Below are positions 1 to 13,539 of a DNA stretch of 64,000 nucleotides, one piece after another; within the stretch, counting starts at the first letter, position 1; every line of letters starts with the position of its first letter. A program made the translations under genes and the position numbers. The DNA lies in contig JAILQO010000032.1 of NCBI GenBank assembly GCA_024698925.1, forward strand, positions 1-64,000. Direction: 5' to 3'. The DNA comes from Bacteroidaceae bacterium (GTDB lineage: Bacteria > Bacteroidota > Bacteroidia > Bacteroidales > Bacteroidaceae). The notes beneath the pieces are model-generated. The model was given only the letters and a program-made list of their open reading frames with translations, was not told the origin of the DNA and did no database searches.

Positions 1-288
1 GTCCTTCGAAACGCTCTTGCCATCGGCATCCTTCCACCTGCGACGGCGCACATGAAGGACCGTGCGGTATTCACGGATGGGAAAGTCGTTCATGCAGGAC
101 TCTTCATAGAAACCATTGGGAGACAAGTCTGTACGATTGTATGGAGCCTTATCCTTCTCAGCAAGATATAGGTGGATACGTGGCTCACCATTATACTCAT
201 CCGTGCGGACTTTTGTCAGGTCAAAATACTCTGTCATCTCTTTGGGAAGGATGACCTTTGCAAGCATCATATAGGGATTCTCGTTCAT
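1..288 (-). CDS. Transposase N-terminal ORF (ISAon1-like), partial
   Basis: An open frame of 96 codons starts at an ATG at 288 and runs off the left edge, so only the N-terminus is visible. It begins MNENPYMMLAKVILPKEM, continues through YFDLTKVRTDEYNGEPRIHL and ends in a basic stretch (VRRRRWKDADGKS). This resembles the first ORF of two-ORF insertion elements common in Bacteroidales (annotated as ISAon1 family transposase N-terminal region), recognised from memory rather than by search. The catalytic part would lie left of the window. No terminal inverted repeat could be assigned downstream of the ATG. It could instead be a stand-alone remnant. Confidence 0.5.
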   Translation of the reverse strand, partial: MNENPYMMLAKVILPKEMTEYFDLTKVRTDEYNGEPRIHLYLAEKDKAPYNRTDLSPNGFYEESCMNDFPIREYRTVLHVRRRRWKDADGKSVSKD

Positions 289-420
289 ACCAGTACTCTT
301 TGTGTGCAAAGGTACTAACAAATGACGAGAAATAAACAATTAGACTAATTTTTCAACACAGGGTTTTGCAAGTGACCCTAAATTATCCCTGATTTCCATT
401 CGGATTTCAGGGATTTTTTG

Positions 421-428
421 TATCTTTG
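421..428 (+). promoter_or_regulatory. Bacteroidota -7 box (TATCTTTG) before the UDG gene
   Basis: TATCTTTG matches the Bacteroidota -7 consensus TAnnTTTG and lies 16 nt before the ATG at 445. No clear TTTG box is seen about 20 nt upstream, so the -33 part is weak. The box argues against a TTG start at 418, which would overlap it. The 289-420 stretch holds no gene that I can see. Confidence 0.5.
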
Positions 429-444
429 TCCCCCAAATAACAAG

Positions 445-1125
445 ATGACGGCGAAAGAATTGGATGAAACGATGACTTCTTATCTAAACACCGAGAATAT
501 TGCTCGCAGCAGGGGCGGGGTAGAGTACCATCCGCTGCGTCCTTTCCTGCCCGAGAATGCCAAGGTACTGTTCTTAGGCAGTTTTCCGCCTCAGCGCAAG
601 CGATGGTGTATGGACTTCTATTACCCGAATTTTATCAATGACCATTGGCGCATCGAGGGACAGATATTCTTTGGCGACAAGAACCACTTTGTTGACCTCG
701 AAGCCAAGCGCTTCAAGATTGATGAGATTTTGGCTTTCTGCCAAGAAAAGGGCCTCGCTTTCTTCGATACTTCTACCGCCATCCGTCGCCTGCAGGACAA
801 CGCCTCCGACAAGTTCCTCGAGGTCGTAGAACCTACCAACATTCCTGCCTTGCTTCAACAACTGCCTCATCTCCGTGCCATCGTGACTACGGGCGAAAAG
901 GCCACTGAAACTATCTGCGCCTCGCTCGGCATCTCATCCATCCCCAAGGTAAACACCTTTGTGGAGATTTCAATTCACGATTCAGAGGCTCCCTCCCTAC
1001 GCAGGAAGGGCGGGGGGAGAGTCTTCCTCTATCGACTTCCTTCTTCCTCCCGCGCCTACCCGTTGTCTTTCGACAAAAAAGTTGAGGCCTACCAGAAGAT
1101 GTTTGCATACATCTTCTCGCATTGA
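445..1125 (+). CDS. Uracil-DNA glycosylase family protein
   Basis: A 226-residue protein of the uracil-DNA glycosylase superfamily, expected to remove uracil or a related damaged base from DNA in the cytoplasm. The N-terminal part carries VLFLGSFPP, the family's first motif (water-activating/phosphate loop), followed by the aromatic segment MDFYYPNFINDHW that would line the base pocket. A later strand-loop, LRAIVTTGEKA, fits the middle of the fold. ATG 445 is chosen because an in-frame TTG at 418 overlaps the -7 box. Residues about 176-192 (SIHDSEAPSLRRKGGGR) look like a repeat-derived insert just before the conserved RLPSSSRAYP segment. The gene stands alone and is followed by a terminator. 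Exact base specificity cannot be read from sequence. Confidence 0.8.
   Translation: MTAKELDETMTSYLNTENIARSRGGVEYHPLRPFLPENAKVLFLGSFPPQRKRWCMDFYYPNFINDHWRIEGQIFFGDKNHFVDLEAKRFKIDEILAFCQEKGLAFFDTSTAIRRLQDNASDKFLEVVEPTNIPALLQQLPHLRAIVTTGEKATETICASLGISSIPKVNTFVEISIHDSEAPSLRRKGGGRVFLYRLPSSSRAYPLSFDKKVEAYQKMFAYIFSH
989..1018. repeat. GC-rich imperfect palindrome inside the UDG gene
   Basis: CTCCCTCCC and GGGCGGGGGGAG face each other around a short centre in frame with the UDG gene, encoding APSLRRKGGG-like residues. It resembles short dispersed palindromes of Bacteroidota and shares the CCCTCCC core with the repeat at 20533-20569. Membership of one family is an inference. Confidence 0.45.
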
Positions 1126-1153
1126 ATAACCATGAATGTCATCATCAAACGTT

Positions 1154-1184
1154 AGCCCGCAGAGTCATCAGCGGGCTTTCTTTA
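1154..1184 (+). terminator. Rho-independent terminator after the UDG gene
   Basis: AGCCCGC (1154-1160) pairs perfectly with GCGGGCT (1171-1177) around a 10-nt loop and is followed by TTCTTTAT. It lies 28 nt past the UDG stop. Confidence 0.8.
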
Positions 1185-1279
1185 TGTCGCGAAATAAAGG
1201 CGTCTATATGCAAGGTAATGGTGAAACAGGTTGATATAAAGCAAAATGTTAGCAAAAGTGTGTGAAAATCTTCAAAATG

Positions 1280-1311
1280 TTTGCGAAGCTCCGTAGAAAT
1301 TTGTACTTTTG
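1280..1311 (+). promoter_or_regulatory. Promoter of the asnB-carAB-glmS operon
   Basis: TTTG (1280-1283), 20 nt, then TACTTTTG (1304-1311) fits the Bacteroidota -33/-7 promoter. The leader to asnB is about 105 nt. An ATCGATTTTAATCGAT palindrome at 1314-1329 overlaps the expected start site and might be an operator; that is only a guess. Confidence 0.65.
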
Positions 1312-1422
1312 CAATCGATTTTAATCGATATGTTTCAAAATGTATCGCATTGTGCGGGTTGAAATTGACATAATGCAACATAGATAGTAGATTGTATAAT
1401 CATTTAATCGTAAGATAAAGCC

Positions 1423-3123
1423 ATGTGTGGAATCGTAGGCATTTTTAAAGTGAAGCAGCAGTCGCACGAAATGCGTGATAAAGCGCTGCGTATGAGTCAG
1501 AAGATTCGTCATCGCGGACCGGATTGGAGTGGAATCTATTGTGGCGGCAGTGCCATCTTGGCTCATGAACGGCTCTCGATTGTCGATCCAGAGAGTGGTG
1601 GACAACCGCTATTCTCGCCTGATAATAAGCAAGTCCTGGCGGTCAATGGCGAGATTTATAATCATCAGGAAATTCGCCGACGCTTTGCAGGGCAGTATGA
1701 ATTCCAAACAGGCAGTGACTGTGAAGTAATATTGGCTTTGTATCGTGAATTCGCTACCGGCAAGACCACGATACAACAGATGTTGGAACAGCTCTCGGGT
1801 ATCTTCGCTTTTGCGCTCTACGATGAGGAACGTGATGAGTTCCTCATTGCTCGCGATCCCATAGGTGTTATACCTTTATATATTGGTTACGACAGCGATG
1901 GAACGATCTATGTTGCATCTGAACTGAAGGCGCTAGAAGGGCAATGTGAGCACTATGAGCCGTTCCTTCCAGGTCATTACGTTATTAGTAGTGACATGCA
2001 AGAAGAAAGGCCTTACACGATGCATCGTTATTACCAGCGTGATTGGTTTGAGTACGCTGCCGTTAAGGAGAATCCCGCTTCTGTTGAGGCTCTCCATGAT
2101 GCGTTGACAGCAGCGGTGAAGCGTCAATTGATGAGCGATGTCCCCTACGGCGTTCTACTTTCTGGTGGCTTGGACTCTTCCGTCGTCTCAGCCATTGCCG
2201 AAAAATTTAGTGAGCATCGCATAGAAGATGATTCGCAGACTCGTGCCTATTGGCCCCGCCTACACTCGTTTGCCGTAGGGTTGAAGGGTGCTCCCGATTT
2301 GGCAAAGGCAAAACTCGTGGCTGACCATATCGGTACTGTTCACCACGAGATCAACTACACCATCCAAGAGGGATTGGATGCCATCCGAGATGTCATCTAT
2401 TTCATTGAGACCTACGATGTGACTACTGTCCGTGCTTCTACCCCTATGTATCTGCTTGCCCGCGTCATCAAGTCGATGGGTATCAAGATGGTGCTCAGCG
2501 GCGAGGGCGCTGATGAGATATTCGGTGGCTACCTTTATTTTCACAAGGCGCCGTCTGCCAAAGACTTCCACGAAGAGACAGTACGCAAGCTTTCAAAGCT
2601 TCATTACTATGACTGTCTACGTGCCAACAAGAGTCTGGCGGCTTGGGGTGTAGAGGGCCGCGTGCCATTCCTCGACAAAGAGTTCTTGGACGTTGCAATG
2701 CGTACGAATCCCAATGCGAAGATGTGTCCGGGCACCACCATTGAAAAGAAGATTGTACGTGAAGCATTTGCTGATATGCTGCCCGAAGAAATTGCCTGGC
2801 GACAAAAGGAACAGTTCAGCGATGGGGTAGGGTATAGCTGGATTGATACGTTGAAAAAGATTACTTCAGAGGTCGTAACCGATGAGCAGATGGCGCATGC
2901 CGCCGAGCGGTTCCCGATTAACCCGCCGCTCAATAAGGAGGAGTATTACTACCGCTCAATCTTTGCAGAACATTTCCCCAGCGACTCTGCCGCTCGGAGT
3001 GTCAATCAGGAGGCCAGTGTGGCTTGTTCTACCGCCATCGCCCTCGAATGGGATGCTGCGTTTAAGAACATGAATGATCCGAGTGGTCGCGCGGTGAAGG
3101 GAGTTCACGAGAAAGCGTATTGA
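1423..3123 (+). CDS. asnB: Asparagine synthase B (glutamine-hydrolysing)
   Basis: A 566-residue cytoplasmic enzyme converting aspartate, glutamine and ATP to asparagine and glutamate. It begins MCGIVG, so after Met removal Cys2 is the N-terminal nucleophile of the class II glutaminase domain (about 1-200). The synthetase domain follows, with the pyrophosphate-binding loop SGGLDSS at 247-253 and the downstream SGEGADEIFGGY segment typical of AsnB. Length and order match the E. coli AsnB type. It is the first gene behind a clear promoter and is followed 42 nt later by the carbamoyl-phosphate synthase gene, so the operon groups enzymes that use glutamine amide nitrogen. Confidence 0.95.
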   Translation: MCGIVGIFKVKQQSHEMRDKALRMSQKIRHRGPDWSGIYCGGSAILAHERLSIVDPESGGQPLFSPDNKQVLAVNGEIYNHQEIRRRFAGQYEFQTGSDCEVILALYREFATGKTTIQQMLEQLSGIFAFALYDEERDEFLIARDPIGVIPLYIGYDSDGTIYVASELKALEGQCEHYEPFLPGHYVISSDMQEERPYTMHRYYQRDWFEYAAVKENPASVEALHDALTAAVKRQLMSDVPYGVLLSGGLDSSVVSAIAEKFSEHRIEDDSQTRAYWPRLHSFAVGLKGAPDLAKAKLVADHIGTVHHEINYTIQEGLDAIRDVIYFIETYDVTTVRASTPMYLLARVIKSMGIKMVLSGEGADEIFGGYLYFHKAPSAKDFHEETVRKLSKLHYYDCLRANKSLAAWGVEGRVPFLDKEFLDVAMRTNPNAKMCPGTTIEKKIVREAFADMLPEEIAWRQKEQFSDGVGYSWIDTLKKITSEVVTDEQMAHAAERFPINPPLNKEEYYYRSIFAEHFPSDSAARSVNQEASVACSTAIALEWDAAFKNMNDPSGRAVKGVHEKAY

Positions 3124-3165
3124 TGGAATAACGAGATAACGGTAAAACGTAATAACGGGACTTAG

Positions 3166-6030
3166 ATGAAGAGAGAAGCAAGATTGATATTGGATGACGG
3201 AACGGTGTTCTGTGGATGGTCGTTTGGTGCAGAAACAAACGCGATAGGTGAGGTTGTGTTCAATACGGCCATGACGGGTTATCCTGAGAGTCTGACAGAC
3301 CCCAGCTATGCTGGCCAGATACTGGTAACCACCTTTCCTCTGATCGGCAACTATGGTGTACCTGATACAGGATTGGGCAAAGATAGTTTGCCCCTATTCA
3401 TGGAAAGTGACCGCATTCACCCCAAGGGCCTCATTGTTGCCGATTACAGTAAACAATACAGTCATTGGAATGCTAAGGAATCCCTCTGTGACTGGTTGAA
3501 ACGCGAGGGTATACCCGCCATTACTGGAATTGACACTCGCAGACTCACAAAAAGGCTTCGGGAAAGTGGCGTGATGAAGGGACGCATAATGATTGAGGGT
3601 TGTGATATCATCGCAGCAAACGAAGACTACAGCTCCATCAATTGGGTAGAGATGGTTAGTTGCAAGGAGGTCATACGCTATAACGAAGGGGCCGGAAAGA
3701 AGGTTGTACTTGTAGATTGTGGCGTGAAAGCCAATATCATTCGTTGCCTTATCAAACGTGGTGTGGAAGTCATTCGTGTACCGTGGGACTACGACTTCAA
3801 CCAATTGGAGTTTGATGGTCTATTCTTAGCGAATGGCCCTGGCGACCCGGAACAATGCACCAAGACGGTGGAGCATATACGTTCTTTTCTTAACAAGAAA
3901 GAGGTGAAGCCTTTGATGGGAATATGTCTTGGCAACCAGCTCTTGGCTCGTGCCGCAGGTGCCAAAACGTATAAACTTAAGTATGGTCACCGTAGCCATA
4001 ACCAGCCCGTGCAGCAGGTCGGCACGACGAAGTGTTACATTACAAGCCAGAATCATGGTTATGCAGTAGATGCTTCTACCCTTCCTGTCGATTGGGAACC
4101 GTTATTTGTGAACATGAACGACGGTTCCAATGAGGGCATTCGGCACAGGGCCAATCCGTGGTTCTCTGCTCAGTTCCACCCTGAAGCATGCTCTGGTCCC
4201 ACTGATACTGAGTGGATGTTTGATGAGTTTATTAGAAGCCTCACCCCCAACCCCTCTCCAAAGGCCGAGGGGAGCCTCTTCGCTAATGATCCCCTCTCTT
4301 CTGGGAGATGGGTTAGGGATGAGGCTAGTAAGGTTCTCCTTCTTGGCTCTGGCGCTCTGAAGATTGGCCAAGCCGGTGAGTTCGATTATAGCGGTGCGCA
4401 GGCGCTGAAGGCTCTAAAGGAAGAGGGGGTGAAGAGCATACTCATCAATCCGAATATCGCCACAGTTCAGACATCGAAGGACGTGGCAGACGTGGTTTAC
4501 TTCCAGCCTGTAACACCTGAGTTCGTGGAGCGCGTGATAGAAAAGGAGCGGCCAGACGGCATACTGCTTTCATTCGGTGGGCAAACAGCTTTGAACTGTG
4601 GAGTGGAATTATATGAAAAAGGTATATTGCAAAAATATGGCGTGAAGGTGCTGGGTACTCCCGTGCAGGCCATCATTGACACCGAAGACCGCGATCTTTT
4701 TGTGAAACGCTTGGACGAAATAGGTGTGAAGACTATCAAGAGTCAAGCGTGCAGCACCAAGGAGGAGGTACGTCAGGCGGCAGCCGAATTGGGCTATCCT
4801 GTAATTCTGCGTGCAGCTTACGCCCTTGGCGGTCTTGGCTCTGGCTTTTGTGAAAACGATACGGAATTGGAAGTACAGGCCGAGGAGGCGTTCTCTTTCT
4901 CACCTCAAGTTTTAGTCGAGAAATCACTGAAAGGATGGAAGGAAATCGAATACGAGGTGGTGCGTGATCGCTATGACAACTGCATCACTGTCTGCAACAT
5001 GGAGAACTTTGACCCGCTTGGTATCCATACAGGTGAGAGTATCGTGGTGGCACCATCGCAGACGCTAACCAACAGCGAATACCACAAGTTGCGTGCTCTT
5101 GCCATCAAGATTATCCGCCACATCGGCATCGTCGGCGAGTGTAACGTGCAGTACGCCCTCGACCCTAACAGCGAAGACTATCGTGTCATCGAGGTGAATG
5201 CCCGTCTGAGCCGCTCCTCGGCATTGGCATCAAAGGCAACAGGCTATCCGCTGGCATTTGTGGCTGCCAAGCTGGGGTTGGGCTATGGTCTGTTCGAATT
5301 GAAGAACTCAGTCACCAAGACTACGAGTGCCTTCTTCGAGCCAGCGCTCGATTACGTTGTGTGCAAGATACCGCGTTGGGATCTGTCCAAGTTCCATGGT
5401 GTGAACCACGAATTGGGCTCCTCAATGAAGAGCGTAGGCGAAGTGATGGCTATTGGACGCACCTTCGAGGAGTCCATTCAGAAGGGCTTGCGCATGATTG
5501 GGCAGGGTATGCACGGTTTCGTGGACAACAAGGCGCAACATGTGACTGATGTCCCCGATGCCCTGCAGCATGCTACTGATACGCGTATCTTTGTCATCGC
5601 CAAAGCCCTGCTGATGGGTTATACGGTGGAACAGATTCACGAGCTAACAAAAATTGACCGTTGGTTCCTACAGAAGTTGAAGCACATCGTAGATATTAAC
5701 GCTCTACTATCAACTTTCAATCCAGAATTATCTTTTATGGCCGAGGTGATGGAGCCTCTGGAGTTGATCGAATACTTAGAGGCACCTGAATTCGTAAATC
5801 TCCTCAGTGATGCTAAAGTCTATGGTTTCTCGGACTTCCAAATCGCTCGTGCGCTCGGCCTTGGCGAATGTCACGTCTCCGATGCACATCCCAAGACGAT
5901 GGAGCAAGCTGCCCTCACCGTTCGTGCTTGGCGCAAGGAACTTGGTGTGATCCCCACTGTCAGCCAGATTGATACCCTCGCTGCCGAGTACCCCGCCCAA
6001 ACCAATTATCTTTATGTCTCCTATCTATAA
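3166..6030 (+). CDS. carA-carB': CarA fused to the N-terminal half of CarB (carbamoyl-phosphate synthase, lacking the second synthetase half)
   Basis: A 954-residue fusion. Residues 1-357 are a complete carbamoyl-phosphate synthase small subunit: the glutaminase triad is Cys254 (in GICLGNQ), His338 and Glu340 (in FHPEA). Residues 358-388 are encoded by a palindromic repeat. Residues 389-954 match only the first half of CarB, starting KVLLLGSGALKIGQAGEFDY: the carboxyphosphate ATP-grasp domain plus the oligomerisation region. Key ATP/metal residues are kept (Arg509 in EDRDLF; Glu676, Asn678, Arg680 and Arg683 in EVNARLSR). The protein stops after TNYLYVSYL, exactly where a usual CarB of about 1070 residues would enter its carbamate-phosphorylating half and allosteric domain. 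That half is absent; glmS starts 22 nt later. It may act as a homodimer, partner with a separately encoded half, or be defective beside an intact copy elsewhere. Confidence 0.9.
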   Translation: MKREARLILDDGTVFCGWSFGAETNAIGEVVFNTAMTGYPESLTDPSYAGQILVTTFPLIGNYGVPDTGLGKDSLPLFMESDRIHPKGLIVADYSKQYSHWNAKESLCDWLKREGIPAITGIDTRRLTKRLRESGVMKGRIMIEGCDIIAANEDYSSINWVEMVSCKEVIRYNEGAGKKVVLVDCGVKANIIRCLIKRGVEVIRVPWDYDFNQLEFDGLFLANGPGDPEQCTKTVEHIRSFLNKKEVKPLMGICLGNQLLARAAGAKTYKLKYGHRSHNQPVQQVGTTKCYITSQNHGYAVDASTLPVDWEPLFVNMNDGSNEGIRHRANPWFSAQFHPEACSGPTDTEWMFDEFIRSLTPNPSPKAEGSLFANDPLSSGRWVRDEASKVLLLGSGALKIGQAGEFDYSGAQALKALKEEGVKSILINPNIATVQTSKDVADVVYFQPVTPEFVERVIEKERPDGILLSFGGQTALNCGVELYEKGILQKYGVKVLGTPVQAIIDTEDRDLFVKRLDEIGVKTIKSQACSTKEEVRQAAAELGYPVILRAAYALGGLGSGFCENDTELEVQAEEAFSFSPQVLVEKSLKGWKEIEYEVVRDRYDNCITVCNMENFDPLGIHTGESIVVAPSQTLTNSEYHKLRALAIKIIRHIGIVGECNVQYALDPNSEDYRVIEVNARLSRSSALASKATGYPLAFVAAKLGLGYGLFELKNSVTKTTSAFFEPALDYVVCKIPRWDLSKFHGVNHELGSSMKSVGEVMAIGRTFEESIQKGLRMIGQGMHGFVDNKAQHVTDVPDALQHATDTRIFVIAKALLMGYTVEQIHELTKIDRWFLQKLKHIVDINALLSTFNPELSFMAEVMEPLELIEYLEAPEFVNLLSDAKVYGFSDFQIARALGLGECHVSDAHPKTMEQAALTVRAWRKELGVIPTVSQIDTLAAEYPAQTNYLYVSYL
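4237..4326. repeat. Long imperfect palindrome forming the CarA-CarB joint
   Basis: Left arm 4237-4259 and right arm 4304-4326 are inverted copies (20 of 23 positions match). A second nested pair, GAGGGGA (4267-4273) and TCCCCTC (4290-4296), extends the hairpin. Read forward it encodes LTPNPSPKAEG; the opposite strand gives LIPNPSPRREG, the well-known signature of a palindromic repeat dispersed in Bacteroidota genomes. Here it is read through in frame. Confidence 0.85.
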
Positions 6031-6052
6031 ACATTAAACTCTGAATTATCAA

Positions 6053-7897
6053 ATGTGTGGAATTGTAGGTTATATAGGTACTAAAAAAGCCTATCCGATT
6101 TTGATTAAAGGACTCCAGCGACTGGAGTACCGAGGTTATGACAGCGCTGGTGTAGCGATGATTAGCGACAGCGGAGACCTCAACGTATATAAGGCAAAAG
6201 GAAAGGTTGACAACCTGACCGAATTTTGTAGCGACAAGGATATATCGGGTTCTGTAGGCATTGCCCATACGCGTTGGGCTACACACGGCGAACCGTCAGC
6301 GCGTAACGCCCATCCTCATTATTCTAGCACCCACAATTTGGCCATTATCCACAATGGTATCATTGAGAACTATGCTACCATCAAGGCGAAGCTACAGACT
6401 AAGGGCGTGGAGTTCAAAAGCGATACTGACACGGAAGTCCTTGTGCAGTTGGTGGAATATGTGATGGTCAAGAAGAACTTGACATTGCTAGAAGCTGTGC
6501 AGGTAGCTTTGCATCAGGTGATCGGAGCTTATGCGATTGCCATTGTTGACAAGCGTGATCCGCGTCAGATCATCGCAGCTCGCAAGCAAAGTCCACTTGT
6601 GGTGGGCATCGGCGAGGATGAATTTTTCTTAGGCTCTGACGCCAGCCCGATTATCGACTATACTGACAAGGTCGTATATCTGGAGGACGGCAATATAGCC
6701 GTTATCCGATTGGGCGAGGAACTCCGTGTGATGAGCATCCTTGGCGAAGAGCAGGAACTGAACGTGAAGACGGTGGATATCGATCTCGGTCAGATAGAGA
6801 AAGGTGGTTATAACCACTTCATGTTGAAGGAAATCTTTGAGCAGCCCGAATGCTTGAAGAACTGTATGCGTGGGCGCATCAACGTTGAAGGCAATCACGT
6901 GACGTTGTCTGCTATGATTGACTATCGCCAGCAGCTACTGAGTGCCAAGCGCATCGTGATTGTAGCTTGTGGCACCTCGTGGCACGCAGGACTCATCGGC
7001 AAGCAGCTCTTCGAGAGCCTGTGCCGCATACCCTGCGAGGTGGAGTACGCCTCGGAGTTCCGCTACCGTAACCCTGTGGTGACTAAGGATGATGTGGTGA
7101 TTGCCATCTCACAAAGCGGCGAGACGGCTGATACACTGGCAGCCATCCAGTTGGCTAAGGAACAAGGAGCGTTCATCTATGGCATCTGCAATGCCATCGG
7201 CTCCAGCATTCCTCGTGCAACGGACACGGGAACATACATCCACGTAGGTCCTGAAATCGGTGTTGCCTCTACCAAGGCCTTTACGGGTCAGGTGACGGTA
7301 CTCTCGATGTTAGCGCTGTGCTTAGCTTCAGAGCGGGGAACCATCTCTGAGGAACAATACAAGGAGATGGTCAAGGAACTGACGCTGATACCCGAAAAAC
7401 AGGAACAGGCACTGAAGACCAACGAGCAGATAGAACGCCTGGCTCCTATCTTCACTTACGCCAAGAACTGCCTCTACCTGGGGCGCGGATACAACTATCC
7501 TCTGGCACTCGAAGGCGCGCTGAAACTCAAGGAAATCTCATATATCCATGCCGAAGGCTATCCTGCTGCTGAGATGAAGCACGGTCCCATTGCCCTGATC
7601 GACTCTGAGATGCCTGTCTTTGTCATCGCCACGCGCGACCGTCTGTATGAGAAAGTCATTTCCAATATTCAGGAAGTCCGTGCCCGTGGTGGTCGCGTCA
7701 CAGCGCTTGTCACCGAAGGAGACACACAAATCCAGAAGTTTGCAGACCACATCATTACCCTTCCGGATACCCTTGAGTGCTTCCAACCTCTCATCGCCAG
7801 TATTCCTCTGCAGCTGCTGGCCTATCACATAGCAGTTTGCAAGGGCAAGGACGTTGATCGTCCTCGCAACCTTGCAAAAAGTGTGACGGTAGAATAA
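6053..7897 (+). CDS. glmS: Glutamine--fructose-6-phosphate aminotransferase (isomerising)
   Basis: A 614-residue enzyme making glucosamine-6-phosphate from fructose-6-phosphate and glutamine, the first step to UDP-GlcNAc for peptidoglycan and lipid A. It begins MCGIVGYIGTKKA, giving Cys2 as the class II glutaminase nucleophile (domain about 1-225). Two SIS sugar-isomerase domains follow (for example VACGTSWHAG and ISQSGETADT), and the C-terminus DRPRNLAKSVTVE is the classic GlmS tail that seals the active site. It starts 22 nt after the CarA/CarB fusion, probably in the same transcript. No glmS ribozyme is seen in that short gap. It converges on hppA with only 15 nt between stops and no visible hairpin. 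Confidence 0.96.
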   Translation: MCGIVGYIGTKKAYPILIKGLQRLEYRGYDSAGVAMISDSGDLNVYKAKGKVDNLTEFCSDKDISGSVGIAHTRWATHGEPSARNAHPHYSSTHNLAIIHNGIIENYATIKAKLQTKGVEFKSDTDTEVLVQLVEYVMVKKNLTLLEAVQVALHQVIGAYAIAIVDKRDPRQIIAARKQSPLVVGIGEDEFFLGSDASPIIDYTDKVVYLEDGNIAVIRLGEELRVMSILGEEQELNVKTVDIDLGQIEKGGYNHFMLKEIFEQPECLKNCMRGRINVEGNHVTLSAMIDYRQQLLSAKRIVIVACGTSWHAGLIGKQLFESLCRIPCEVEYASEFRYRNPVVTKDDVVIAISQSGETADTLAAIQLAKEQGAFIYGICNAIGSSIPRATDTGTYIHVGPEIGVASTKAFTGQVTVLSMLALCLASERGTISEEQYKEMVKELTLIPEKQEQALKTNEQIERLAPIFTYAKNCLYLGRGYNYPLALEGALKLKEISYIHAEGYPAAEMKHGPIALIDSEMPVFVIATRDRLYEKVISNIQEVRARGGRVTALVTEGDTQIQKFADHIITLPDTLECFQPLIASIPLQLLAYHIAVCKGKDVDRPRNLAKSVTVE

Positions 7898-7912
7898 AAC
7901 GGAGTTGTATCG

Positions 7913-10108
7913 CTATGCAAAGGCGACTGTGAGGCCGGCCATGACGATACTGACCATAGACATGAGTTTGATGAGGATGTTGAGACTGGGGCCGCTGGTG
8001 TCCTTGAATGGGTCGCCAACGGTGTCACCTACGATGGTGGCCTTATGAGCAAACGAGCCCTTGCCGCCGAAGTTGCCTTCCTCGACCATCTTCTTGGCGT
8101 TGTCCCAGGCGCCACCAGCGTTGGCCATGAATACGGCGAGCGTGAAGCCGCCTGCCAGACCGCCAACCAACAGACCCAATACGCCAGCAACACCAAGAAT
8201 TAAGCCCACAACGATGGGGATGGCAATGGCCAGAATTGACGGGAAAATCATCTCGTGCTGAGCCGCACGTGTGGAGATAGCAACGCAGGAACCATAGTCT
8301 GGTGTGGCCTTGCCCTCCAGGATGCCTGCAATCTCACGGAACTGACGGCGTACCTCTTCAACCATCTTCTGTGCTGCACGGCCCACAGCTTCCATGGTGA
8401 GGCCACAGAACAGGAATGCGGCCATTGCACCGATGAAAGCGCCCACAAGGACGCGCGGGTTCATCAAATTAACTTGGAAGTAGTTCATGAAATCGGGAAT
8501 GGTAGCATCGGCCGCTGCGATGATCTCCCCTTTGAGGTTGGTAAGTGTCATACCTGCCCGTTCCATCGCTATTTTCACCTCTTCGATGTACGATGCCAAG
8601 AGGGCCAGGGCGGTCAGTGCGGCGGAGCCAATCGCGAAGCCTTTGCCTGTAGCGGCTGTCGTATTTCCGAGTGCATCAAGGGCATCTGTGCGATGGCGTA
8701 CCTCCTCGCCTAACTCGCTCATCTCGGCGTTTCCGCCAGCGTTATCAGCGATAGGACCATAGGCATCAGTTGCGAGGGTGATGCCCAGCGTAGAGAGCAT
8801 ACCTACGGCGGCGATACCGATACCGTAGAGCCCCTTGGACAGCGCCTCGGCCGACATCGCCATGTTGAATCCGTTGGCGCAGAGGTAGCTGAGCATGATG
8901 GCTACACCGATGGTCACGACAGGGATGCATGTGGAAATCATACCCGTTCCAATGCCTTTGATAATCACGGTGGCCGAACCTGTGAGGCCAGCCTCGGAGA
9001 TCTTCTGGGTGGGCTTGTAGGAATGGCTGGTATAATATTCTGTGGCCTGACCAATGATGATGCCGGCAGCCAAGCCAGTGATGACGGAGAAGGAGAGGCC
9101 GAGCCAGTTGTCAATGCCCAACAGATAGAGGATAGCAAAAGTTGCTACGGCGATGAGAAGGGCAGACACGTTGGTGCCTACGGAAAGGGAGCGCAGCAGG
9201 TCGCGCATCGTGGCGCCTTCTTTGGTGCGTACCAGATAGATACCGAAGATGCTGAGGAATACGCCCACGGCGGCAATCAGCATCGGAGCGATGACGGCTT
9301 TCATCTGCATCTCACCACTCATGGCAAAGGCTGTAGCGCCCAGTGCTGCAGTGGAGAGAATGCTACCGCAATAGCTCTCATAGAGGTCGGCACCCATGCC
9401 GGCAACGTCGCCTACATTGTCACCCACATTGTCGGCGATGGTGGCGGGGTTGCGCGGATCGTCCTCGGGAATGTCTGCCTCGACCTTGCCCACGATGTCT
9501 GCGCCTACGTCGGCCGCTTTGGTATAGATACCTCCGCCTACACGGGCAAACAACGCCTGTGTGGAGGCACCCATGCCGAAGGTCAGCATCGTGGTGGTGA
9601 TGGTGATGAGGGCGAAGTTGTCACCTTTGTAGAACGTGTTGAGGATGAGGAACCAGATGGCGATGTCCAAGAGACCGAGACCCACAACGGTGAGACCCAT
9701 GACGGCACCGCTGCGGAAGGCAATCTTCAGACCCCCGTCCAAACTCTTGCGAGCGGCGTTGGCGGTGCGGGCGGAAGCGTAGGTGGCTGTTTTCATACCA
9801 AAGAAACCAGCGAGTCCTGAGAAGAAACCGCCTGTGATGAAGGCGAAGGGAACCCACGGGTTCTGCCATTTCAACACATAGGCCATGAAGGCAAAGATAA
9901 TGGCCAGTACAACAAACACGATAGTGACAACCTTGTATTGTTGCTTGAGGTAAGACATAGCGCCACTACGTACGTAGCTGGCAATCTCACGCATGCGAGG
10001 CGTGCCCTCGTCCGCGCGCATCATCGTGCGGAAAAAATAGTAGGCCATGCACAATGCCACTACCGAAGCAATGGGCACGAGCCAAAAAGCAGTAGGAATC
10101 ATCATCAT
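7913..10108 (-). CDS. hppA: Membrane-bound ion-pumping pyrophosphatase
   Basis: A 731-residue inner-membrane protein with about 16 hydrophobic segments that couples pyrophosphate hydrolysis to export of H+ and/or Na+. The hydrolytic signature [20 protein letters not shown] is followed by [20 protein letters not shown], and the C-terminal [17 protein letters not shown] loop completes the site. [10 protein letters not shown] has Ala where K+-independent enzymes have Lys, so a K+-dependent enzyme is predicted. Related Bacteroides enzymes are known to pump both Na+ and H+; the ion used here is inferred. It lies 65 nt after the esterase gene in the same direction and may be the last gene of that run. 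Confidence 0.95.
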
Positions 10109-10173
10109 AGGTAAGTAATATTAGTAATTGTTAAATGAAAAAGTAGGCAAGTTTTCAATATCCCCCCCAATCA

Positions 10174-11028
10174 TCATCTGCTGAAGTTCCTTGATGCGAA
10201 AGGTAGGGCCATGCGGAGGGCCTGATGCCAGTACTCCCAGTTGTGTACGCCGTTGCGGATGCGGAGTTCATCCTTGATACGGGCATTACGCATCAACTGG
10301 TGAAGGCGGACATTTAAGTCAAAAAGGAAGTCATCATCGCCACAGTCGAAGAACCATTTCACGGTACGGAGCTGCTTCTTGCTCTCATCGTCGGCATTCT
10401 CAATGAAAGCGAGTGCAGAATGATTCTTGACCGCCTCGCAGACATAATAGAGCTTATCCTTTTGTTGGCCAGGCCCCACATTATTACTCTGGTTGTCCAA
10501 CCAGGCGCTCATAGCATAGCAACTGCTAAACATATCAGGGTGACGTTGGCAATAGACGGTACTACCGCCACCGCCCATGGAAAGACCCATCACCGCACGG
10601 TGCCCCTTGTCGCCCACAGCGTGGTATTTCTTTTCGACGATAGGAATAAACTCTTGAAAGAAGAAGTCCTCATAGTTCCATCCTGGCATGTTGAAATAGC
10701 CGTTCCAAGTGTTATGTGTATCTGGTCCGCCAGCATTGGGCATAACGATAATCATCTCGCAGGCTTCACCCGACTCAATCAGCTCATCAGCGACCTCTTG
10801 CATATGGCCCTTGTCGCGCCATGCGCGATAATCATCGCTCAGGCCGTGCAGCAAATAGACTATTGGATATTTCTTGCTGTCGGCAAAGCCATTGGGGAGA
10901 TAGATATTATACTTGACAGTGGCACCGAGCACTTGGCTCTGGACGCTATCTGTCACGATTCTGCCTGCATAGGCGGCAAGGCTGGCCGCAAAGGCTGCCA
11001 AAACGAGGACGAAATGTCGTGTGTTCAT
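10174..11028 (-). CDS. Secreted alpha/beta-hydrolase esterase (CE1-like)
   Basis: A 284-residue protein with a signal peptide ending near AAYA. The alpha/beta-hydrolase core shows YLLHGLSDDYRAW (oxyanion-side loop), the nucleophile elbow GLSMGG with Ser150, a DCGDDDFL segment for the acid, and a histidine near the end in GVHNWEYW. This is the layout of carbohydrate esterase family 1 and esterase D-like enzymes, such as feruloyl or acetyl-xylan esterases. Placement 27 nt after a GH105-DUF4861 gene suggests it removes acyl groups from plant polysaccharide in the periplasm or outside. Which acyl group is removed cannot be told. Confidence 0.85.
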   Translation of the reverse strand: MNTRHFVLVLAAFAASLAAYAGRIVTDSVQSQVLGATVKYNIYLPNGFADSKKYPIVYLLHGLSDDYRAWRDKGHMQEVADELIESGEACEMIIVMPNAGGPDTHNTWNGYFNMPGWNYEDFFFQEFIPIVEKKYHAVGDKGHRAVMGLSMGGGGSTVYCQRHPDMFSSCYAMSAWLDNQSNNVGPGQQKDKLYYVCEAVKNHSALAFIENADDESKKQLRTVKWFFDCGDDDFLFDLNVRLHQLMRNARIKDELRIRNGVHNWEYWHQALRMALPFASRNFSR

Positions 11029-11055
11029 GTGAGTATTATTTAATTTTTTACATTA

Positions 11056-13539
11056 TCAGTGCTCTACGAGTTGGAGACCGTTCTGAAGGATACGCTGTTC
11101 ATGACGCAGGGTCTCTTGCCAGATGGCATGGGTCGGCACGTCATAGAGGCTCCAGGCGGATCCCGTGTAATAGACGAAGGGCTGGCCGGGGATGTAGGTC
11201 GTCTGGATGAGAGCGTGACCGATGCCGCCTGAGCGTTTTTCGGGTAGGGGGAGATATTGGGCCTTTATAGCACCCTGTCGGGGCACGATAAAGACACCAA
11301 TATAGTGCTCTCCGTTCATGCGTCGATCAGCATTGTCGAGGGGTTCTGCGTAGGTGATGAAGCCTTCCTTCTTATTGAGGACGTAAGCTTTAGGCGCGGA
11401 CTCATGGACAATGATACCAGTACAGATGGGGGTTGACTTGTCGAGACCCTCATAACTGACTTCCACGCGAGCGAAATGGCTACCGCAATCCTGTGTGATG
11501 AGGCGCGTCTCGCGTACGGTGGTTCCATCCACGGTCCTTTCAGGCATGGTCATGCGGACGACGAAGCGCAGGGGACCATTATCAAGGATTTCAGCCTTCT
11601 CGTAATAGAGTGGATACACCAATTCCTCCTCACCTTGACGGGAGGGGGTGTTTTTCAAAGCCGTAGCACCGGCTCCAAGGGTGGCGCCGACGGTATAGGA
11701 ATCCATGCCGGCACCGAAGTTGCGGTGATAGGTGTAGCCGCGATGGACTTCGTTCCAGTCAAGAGGCGTCTTGTCGCGTTTCATACGCTCGTTGATACCA
11801 TAAGAGGTGAGCTCGTTGTGATAGAGCTGGTCCTGAATGGGGTGAGAGACGTTCTTAACGAAAGTGTCGAAGCCATAGGCTTTGTTGTTCATGTGCTTGT
11901 TTGCTGCGGGGCCATAGAAGCGCCAGGCGCAACGATCGTTCTCCCAGACAAGGTCGTCCCAGCGGTTGGGGTAGATACGACCGTTGCAGGTCAGTTCGTA
12001 GTCAAGAGGCTGACCTTTGTACATGGTGAGATGGATGCTGCTGTGCGGGCGTACGCTGCAGAACACGAGGACGCGACCGTCGTGGGTAATCTGATATGGA
12101 ACCTCATTGCGGTCGCCGTCGAGGAAGAAAAACTCACGGGCTACGGCGCAGTTGGCTTTCTTCAGCACATCCATAGTGGTCAGTTCAATGACTTGTGCGA
12201 TATTCTCGTCGGTTGGGTTGGCAATCTCGTAGGTGCCGAAGTCCTCATGGCCGCGAAAGCGGAGCAGGGGGTCGGCAGACGTAGGACTACCGGTGATGGC
12301 GATGGGCGAACCGCCACCCACGCCTACCGTAGGCGTAGTGGGGGTGTGGTGATAGATGCTGTTGGTGACCTTATTGGAGTCAGGAGCAGGGATGAGGGGG
12401 TCGGCGTTGATGTAGCGTACCATCTCGCAGGCCGCCAGCAGCCAGGCACCTGTGCCGAAGGGAGCCTGGGAATGGGCATCAACGGTCTTTGTGGGATCTG
12501 GCTTTTCGCCGATGGGCTGCACGAAACCAATACTGCCGTCGGGTTGCAAAGCGGTTTCTGAAAGATACTTCCACGCTCGCTCGATGACAGGAGCATAGGT
12601 CGATTTGTCGAGGTAGCCGTTGTTGACACCCCAGAGCATGCCATAGGTGAAGAATGCGGTGCCAGAGGTCTCTGGACCAGGAGCATCGTCTTCGCAAAGC
12701 ATAGAACGGCTCCAGTAGCCGCCAGGACGCTGCACGCGCGCTACGCCCTCAGCCAACTCGCGGAAGCGCTGCACGAAGATAGCGCGGTTCTTGTAGTCTT
12801 GTGGCATGTCGGCAAGGACTTTAGCGAGACCGGCCAACACCCATCCGTCGCCGCGTGCCCAAAAGCTCTTGCCGTCATTGCAGGCGGTCTTAACCTTGGG
12901 ATAGATATACTTGGCATCGCGGTAGTAGAGTTGCTCTTCGTGGTCGAACATCAGGCTGTCACTCCACAGAAAGTTCTCTGTAAGTTTGTCCAGGTATTTC
13001 ACCTCGCCTGTGAGCTTATACATCTTGGTCATGACTGGCATCACCATGTAGAGGGCATCAGCCCACCACCAGAAATGGGTGTCGGTCATCGAACACTCGT
13101 GGCTCATCACCTCGATGGCGCGTGCAACCTTGTAGGGAGCGGGTATGAGGTTGTACATATCAATATAGGTCTGGAAGCAAATCTGCCAGTCGCCGAAAAG
13201 CACGAAATCCTGCCCTTCACCATAGGTGGCATACTTCCAATTTGCTTTATCATCGCTCCTGGCGCCTTTCCATTCGTTGTGGCGGCACCACTTATCGGTA
13301 TAGGCATACCAGTCGGCACGGCCCGTGAGGCGGTAGGCCTCCATGTTACCAGTGTGGTAGGCTGCGTGGTCCCAGAAGGAACGGATGTAGGGGGTGTTGT
13401 TGGCCTGCCAATAGTTGTTGACTTTGATAATCTGGTCGAGAACCCTCCCCGCGTCATCTGTTTGGTTCGCAAACGTTGGCAAAGCAAAGACGATTGCTAA
13501 GGAATAAATGATTAAGAATGATTTAGTTAGTTGTCTCAT
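11056..13539 (-). CDS. GH105-like unsaturated glycuronyl hydrolase fused to a DUF4861 domain
   Basis: An 827-residue exported protein (signal peptide ending about ALPTFA). Residues about 25-390 form an alpha/alpha-barrel of family GH88/GH105: WWWADALYM contains Asp161 in the place of the catalytic acid, and SFWARGDGWVLAG and SQAPFGTGAWLLA are typical barrel motifs. These enzymes remove the unsaturated uronic acid left by polysaccharide lyases. After a low-complexity linker (about 395-430, rich in Pro, Thr and Gly) comes a second module of about 390 residues (from FRGHEDFGTYEIANP) that I assign to DUF4861, often found beside pectin-degrading enzymes. A substrate such as rhamnogalacturonan is likely but unproven. 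The DHH gene ends 28 nt before its start codon. Confidence 0.85.
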   Translation of the reverse strand: MRQLTKSFLIIYSLAIVFALPTFANQTDDAGRVLDQIIKVNNYWQANNTPYIRSFWDHAAYHTGNMEAYRLTGRADWYAYTDKWCRHNEWKGARSDDKANWKYATYGEGQDFVLFGDWQICFQTYIDMYNLIPAPYKVARAIEVMSHECSMTDTHFWWWADALYMVMPVMTKMYKLTGEVKYLDKLTENFLWSDSLMFDHEEQLYYRDAKYIYPKVKTACNDGKSFWARGDGWVLAGLAKVLADMPQDYKNRAIFVQRFRELAEGVARVQRPGGYWSRSMLCEDDAPGPETSGTAFFTYGMLWGVNNGYLDKSTYAPVIERAWKYLSETALQPDGSIGFVQPIGEKPDPTKTVDAHSQAPFGTGAWLLAACEMVRYINADPLIPAPDSNKVTNSIYHHTPTTPTVGVGGGSPIAITGSPTSADPLLRFRGHEDFGTYEIANPTDENIAQVIELTTMDVLKKANCAVAREFFFLDGDRNEVPYQITHDGRVLVFCSVRPHSSIHLTMYKGQPLDYELTCNGRIYPNRWDDLVWENDRCAWRFYGPAANKHMNNKAYGFDTFVKNVSHPIQDQLYHNELTSYGINERMKRDKTPLDWNEVHRGYTYHRNFGAGMDSYTVGATLGAGATALKNTPSRQGEEELVYPLYYEKAEILDNGPLRFVVRMTMPERTVDGTTVRETRLITQDCGSHFARVEVSYEGLDKSTPICTGIIVHESAPKAYVLNKKEGFITYAEPLDNADRRMNGEHYIGVFIVPRQGAIKAQYLPLPEKRSGGIGHALIQTTYIPGQPFVYYTGSAWSLYDVPTHAIWQETLRHEQRILQNGLQLVEH

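Follow-up and report, generated by a model that had tools for sequence, protein, structure and literature searches.

A conserved fusion of CarA to the first half of CarB in Prevotella-like bacteria, and its possible role as a compact carbamoyl-phosphate synthase

The open reading frame at positions 3166–6030 of the DNA analysed here (the window: the whole 64,000-nucleotide stretch of a Bacteroidaceae contig) joins an entire glutaminase subunit of carbamoyl-phosphate synthase (CPS) to only the first half of the synthetase subunit. The question raised is whether such a chain can still make carbamoyl phosphate and, if so, where the carbamate it produces is phosphorylated. The original prediction offered three answers: a natural single-synthetase enzyme, a split enzyme with its other half elsewhere, or a relic beside an intact carAB. 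The last two did not hold up, and the first, judged from sequence comparisons, is the one that we tentatively prefer.

Structure and surroundings of the fusion gene

The frame lies on the forward strand, begins with ATG, ends with TAA, and encodes 954 amino acids. Its CarA part (residues 1–360, positions 3166–4245) consists of a CPSase small-chain domain and a class-I glutaminase domain carrying the motifs GICLGNQ and QFHPE, and scored 455.6 bits with TIGR01368 (cut-off 307.35), as is appropriate for a CarA glutaminase subunit with its catalytic Cys-His-Glu. A linker of about residues 361–383 (4246–4314), which is variable in length in relatives, leads into the N-terminal half of CarB (residues 384–954, positions 4315–6027) with its pre-ATP-grasp, ATP-grasp, and oligomerisation domains. 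The Pfam matches, each of them a single stretch, are CPSase_sm_chain (7–141), GATase (181–357), CPSase_L_D1 (388–503), CPSase_L_D2 (508–710), and CPSase_L_D3, the oligomerisation domain (799–896); PF02786 matched at 269.1 bits, consistent with a first ATP-grasp half bearing the bicarbonate site. The CarB model TIGR01369 aligned at its positions 3–542 of 1052, which bears out the prediction that only the N-terminal half of CarB is present. Its score of 855.9 bits is below the cut-off of 1027, whereas a second NCBIfam large-subunit model, NF003671, scored 722.9, above its cut-off of 599. Of CarB, the chain retains the first ATP-grasp half together with the oligomerisation domain: no second ATP-grasp half, the carbamate kinase of CPS II, was found in the chain by Pfam or NCBIfam, and no MGS domain (PF02142), the C-terminal allosteric feature of CPS II, was found by Pfam. 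By the Pfam matches there is thus one synthetase domain per chain, as in the Methanobrevibacter smithii type of CPS. TNYLYVSYL closes the chain at the domain border, and the start of glmS, at 6053, comes 22 nt past the stop codon, both as predicted.

About residues 855–876 (5728–5793), within the oligomerisation domain, are extra residues found on alignment in all 22 truncated loci compared. The distance between DRWF and GFSD is 53–68 in 22/22 truncated rows versus 34–44 in 48 of the 70 rows of the ordinary Bacteroidota CarB, here CarB1, those 48 being the measurable ones. An imperfect palindrome lies mostly within the CarA–CarB linker (4240–4323, arms 4240–4259 and 4304–4323); no further copy of its arm pattern was found in the window at up to three mismatches, and the linkers of L025, L030, and L032 contain similar motifs in translation. 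One and the same fusion protein is labelled a large subunit by one source and a small subunit by another, and the fusion is therefore also of relevance to annotation.

On the same strand, asnB (glutamine-dependent asparagine synthase B, 1423–3123) lies 42 nt upstream of the fusion and glmS (glutamine-fructose-6-phosphate transaminase, 6053–7897) lies downstream. Contig ends interrupt several of the loci, but among the 22 truncated loci asnB was a neighbour in 17, a purF-like gene in 18, pyrG in 16, and glmS in three, whereas the 70 CarB1 loci had a purF-like gene in 24, glmS in 16, pyrG in one, and asnB in none. These counts indicate that the truncated loci form a cluster of glutamine amidotransferases. 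The purF-like protein, of ~600 amino acids, scored 153.6 against an NCBIfam purF cut-off of 350 in L021 (L021:11674–13458), and those of L008 (L008:8944–10743) and L048 (L048:4077–5960) had no NCBIfam match at E 1e-40. No regulatory RNA was matched in Rfam at E 0.1 in window positions 1–12000.

Conservation, selection, and origin

The fusion and its stop were to be looked for in related genomes, and they do recur there. Among 7997 homologues that were scored, the top 120 (80–100% identity, 936–1016 amino acids) all have the same Pfam set and both glutaminase motifs, and 118 end one or two residues past NYLYxS. Residues R129, R169, E215, N236, H243, Q285, E299, N301, R303, R306, A23, E25, M378, and E383 (E. 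coli numbering), among others checked, agree in 22/22 locus rows and in 120/120 of these homologues; the positions checked are those that we take to serve bicarbonate phosphorylation or to line the carbamate tunnel on its N-side. Position D207 is E in the truncated rows, but likewise in all 70 CarB1 rows and in nine rows of CarB2, a second CarB described below. The claim that the active site is kept and the gene is not decaying was therefore upheld. In addition, 255 of the 264 columns that are invariant in CarB1 are kept in the truncated set, alongside clade-specific changes at several positions (window residues 402, 411, 447, and 535 among them). The median dN/dS within the truncated set was 0.095 (range 0.032–0.142; 54/231 pairs usable, the rest being near saturation), compared with 0.090 for CarB2 (6/36 pairs usable) and a lower 0.020 for CarB1, for which only 3/171 pairs were usable. 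The 22-locus counts and the trees leave out four partial loci (L001–L004) and two (L027 and L037) on the same contigs as L006 and L021. On this comparative evidence, the fusion gene is a real enzyme gene under selection. One genome (G366) has two truncated fusions, on contigs C77 and C104.

When 101 first halves of CarB were placed on a tree, all 22 truncated halves formed one clade (SH-aLRT 100) nested in the Prevotella-type CarB1, and CarB2 formed a separate and distant clade. The phylogeny thus indicates that truncation of CarB had a single origin. The CarA tree was concordant for 21 of the 22 loci; a second CarA tree was made with L068 and L076 left out. The exception, L035 (L035:6001–8823), has carA (362 amino acids) and the truncated carB half (571 amino acids) as two genes separated by 18 nt; its CarA is nearest to an ordinary CarB1-type CarA (80.2% to L039), whereas for its CarB half the nearest sequences are truncated ones (L030, 86.9%). 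Apparently, the glutaminase was exchanged here while the truncated half was retained. CarA and the truncated half are also in separate frames, on one contig, in G370. Within the best 80, the 13 truncated loci that are named come from metagenome-assembled genomes with ruminant or RUG labels, the latter presumably denoting rumen. As a separate observation, human CPS1 is far closer than the E. coli enzyme to Bacteroidota CPS: the full fusion of L046 (L046:5962–10350) scored 1609 bits with human CPS1 and 816 with E. coli CarB, and a CarB2 (L005:7167–10427) scored 1174 and 774 bits, respectively.

The search for the missing half

The source genome (85.2% complete, 97 contigs) was searched for the C-terminal half of CarB and for an intact carB. 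The latter was found, as a separate complete CarB (CarB2) of 1086 amino acids on contig 66; the former was not, as a profile search of the 85.2% complete genome yielded no separate C-half gene, with or without an MGS domain. PF02786 matches were confined to the fusion and the two halves of CarB2, and the sole CarA match was the fusion itself. Among truncated genomes of at least 85% completeness, 0/24 had an MGS-bearing C-half besides CarB2; each had exactly two MGS-domain open reading frames, one being CarB2 (a frame of 1076–1144 amino acids) and the other only 196–250 amino acids long. Nor did C-half queries detect a relic adjoining the truncated frame in any of the 22 loci, the one match being at E 0.35. 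The split-enzyme reading was thus rejected, as no separate C-half was found in the source genome, no MGS-bearing one in the 24 genomes, and none in the flanks of the 22 loci; a full-length second CarB is present instead. Open reading frames of ~500 amino acids with the CarB oligomerisation domain, often two matches per genome, occur in families f11, f13, f14, f16, f25, and f27 of the phylum sample, as would be expected of a carB split in two.

The same data bear on whether the fusion is what remains of a normal carAB operon, through decay or faulty assembly. A full CarB does exist elsewhere in the source genome, and the first half of the fusion falls below the TIGR01369 cut-off, but there is no other CarA in that genome; the domain set and chain end are shared, and the 22 loci come from separate assemblies in which no C-half remnant persists. 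The kept residues, the invariant columns, and the low dN/dS all speak of purifying selection. Neither a complete carA and carB elsewhere with decay in relatives, nor loss of the missing half in assembly, was found, and we judged this explanation highly improbable and discarded it.

A second CarB in the same genomes

The presence of CarB2 beside the fusion was not confined to the source genome. A census of 139 same-genus genomes comprised 52 with the truncated fusion, 18 with a full-length CarA–CarB fusion, 20 with separate carA and full CarB1, three that were unclear, and 46 without CarA. Co-occurrence was evaluated on the 93 CarA-bearing genomes minus G314, G389, and G414 (contig-edge or unclear), i.e., on 52 + 18 + 20; the 46 genomes without CarA were outside the test. 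A second CarB was scored as present when there were at least two PF02787 matches; a complete CarB2 with its MGS domain was directly observed in 24 of the truncated genomes, and the second match is a fragment in G402 and G349. By this criterion, a second CarB accompanied 47/52 truncated fusions, 9/18 full-length fusions, and 7/20 separate carA and CarB1 pairs; the difference between 47/52 truncated and 16/38 full-length genomes (Fisher p 1.2e-6), like that at completeness of at least 85% (28/28 vs 7/23, p 3.4e-8), takes no account of relatedness. The five truncated genomes without a second CarB are only 73–80% complete, and 8.2 absences would be expected from incompleteness; G414 (83% complete), whose fusion is cut and in which PF02787 has no match, could be a sixth. 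A second CarB was also present in 8/8 truncated genomes of four other genera and in 10 of the 11 genomes reached via named loci, the exception being G429, which is presumably the same as G316 (its contig position and frame match) and is 73% complete. On the tree of 47 CarB2 rows (FastTree), the truncated label changes eight times, of which seven are forced; the pairing with CarB2 would therefore have been met repeatedly.

Full-length CarB2 is also found with no CarA at all, in 46/139 same-genus genomes (5/18 at completeness of at least 90%) and, elsewhere in the family, in G156, a single contig of 99% completeness; further examples are G207 and G242 (L016, L017). CarB2 therefore presumably uses free ammonia; it could be a bacterial CPS dependent on ammonia, seemingly managing with no glutaminase of its own. 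The checked residues of both CarB2 halves are kept in 47/47 rows, except at positions 207, 575, and 753, where every CarB2 and almost every CarB1 departs from E. coli. With the thresholds applied, no CarB2 site in the 47 rows told truncated genomes apart from the others, and co-adapted CarB2 sites were consequently rejected as a candidate signature.

These observations define the main rival to a self-sufficient fusion, namely coupling to CarB2. The fusion would make carbamate from glutamine and pass it to the C-half of CarB2, thereby providing a glutamine-driven front end for an ammonia-type enzyme. CarB2 has the only carbamate-phosphorylating half found, the co-occurrence is strict and repeatedly met, including in the four other genera, and the N-side tunnel residues are kept in the fusion. 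However, the N-half of CarB2 is itself intact in 47/47 rows and would need displacing, no CarB2 site distinguishes the truncated genomes, the co-occurrence test ignores relatedness, and the two genes are non-adjacent in the source genome; overall, such a heteromer is possible but somewhat doubtful. Taken further, rumen Prevotella-like bacteria might conceivably possess a two-enzyme system, in which a CarA-less, ammonia-type CarB2 is joined when ammonia is scarce by a detachable chain of glutaminase and first synthetase half (GLN-CPS.A) that feeds carbamate to the CarB2 C-half, though we think this rather unlikely as well. If true, the cell could change its nitrogen donor through whether or not it produces a single chain.

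How the fusion might work

Because its glutaminase, bicarbonate site, and tunnel residues are all kept, the fusion chain has very probably retained the ability to form carbamate from glutamine. This product is labile, and a second ATP-grasp domain should therefore be at hand to receive it, either in another copy of the same chain or in the C-half of CarB2. The reading that we favour, with somewhat less than even confidence, is that the fusion is a compact glutamine-dependent GLN-CPS.A, probably homodimeric, that stands beside an ammonia-type CarB2. Two chains would pair via the face that formerly packed against the C-half; one copy would convert glutamine, bicarbonate, and ATP to carbamate, and the other would phosphorylate the carbamate, so that carbamoyl phosphate would be made from glutamine by an enzyme that has no allosteric domain. 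The fusion would supplement CarB2 rather than replace it.

Precedents from Aquifex aeolicus CPS.A and from M. smithii lean, by analogy, towards the homodimer, as does the unrelaxed core: mean core identity is 92.1% within the truncated set and 90.0% within the near CarB1 rows, and is thus not lower although the partner half has gone. On the other side, a fusion that by itself formed a complete CPS ought to leave CarB2 as dispensable as full-length CarB1 does, but CarB2 accompanied 28/28 truncated versus 7/23 full-length genomes of at least 85% completeness, and the few usable CarB1 pairs (3/171) have a lower dN/dS than the truncated set. A shift of the retained half toward C-half residues, as an adaptation to homodimerisation, was also considered and found no support, as only one of 11 group-specific sites of the truncated half resembles the C-half.

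The chain may instead have changed function, acting as a glutaminase stimulated by bicarbonate and ATP, or supplying carbamate or ammonia for another purpose (e.g., ammonia for CarB2), and making no carbamoyl phosphate itself. That the kinase half and the allosteric domain are gone would fit, as would the obligate presence of CarB2, the glutamine amidotransferase cluster, the extra oligomerisation-domain residues in 22/22 loci, and the clade-specific substitutions. Nevertheless, every ATP and carbamate-tunnel residue is kept, which would be needless in a plain glutaminase, and the carbamate kinase gene arcC was absent above the family cut-off from all 24 truncated genomes (17 had weak matches below it), on which a separate carbamate kinase completing the reaction was also rejected. 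We regard a changed function as unlikely.

Comparison with known systems

Bacterial CPS II, whether CarA and CarB are split or fused and including the Bacteroidota CarB1, shares with the fusion the glutaminase, the first synthetase half, and the oligomerisation domain, but the fusion lacks the second synthetase half and the allosteric domain, two defining features of CPS II. Unlike CarB1, it is accompanied by CarB2 and adjoins asnB (17/22 vs 0/70 loci). Its plan of a glutaminase plus one synthetase half is that of the GLN-CPS.A constructs reportedly engineered by Guy and Evans, except that here it belongs to a natural, conserved gene and not to a laboratory construct. The origin of CPS is generally traced to one ATP-grasp kinase, which acted as a dimer before it was duplicated; this lineage has returned to one synthetase half, now with an attached glutaminase, and selection has preserved it across many genomes. 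Searches of the open-licence literature found no paper on a truncated CarA–CarB fusion, and a preprint reports that B. thetaiotaomicron relies on ordinary CarAB (PMC13252398).

Two natural enzymes come closest, both as described in PMC6022934. A. aeolicus has separate GLN, CPS.A, and CPS.B genes, and its isolated CPS.A performs both partial reactions; the fusion likewise has a CPS.A without CPS.B in the same chain, but the separate CPS.B gene that defines the A. aeolicus system was not found here. The 41-kDa CPS of M. smithii has one synthetase domain per chain, and its dimer does all steps (PMC6022934). The fusion would act as a CPS front end and, if homodimeric, in the manner of the M. smithii enzyme. 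It shares the single synthetase domain per chain, but the M. smithii enzyme has no fused glutaminase, whereas here CarA and an oligomerisation domain are in the chain and a full CarB2 is present too. Many rumen Prevotella-like bacteria have a selected-looking half CPS plus a complete second CarB without its own glutaminase, and they provide a natural sequence set for asking whether one half does both phosphorylations in the cell. Given that a single-domain homodimeric CPS is already known from M. smithii, a natural, conserved GLN-CPS.A would, by analogy, be a variant of that enzyme.
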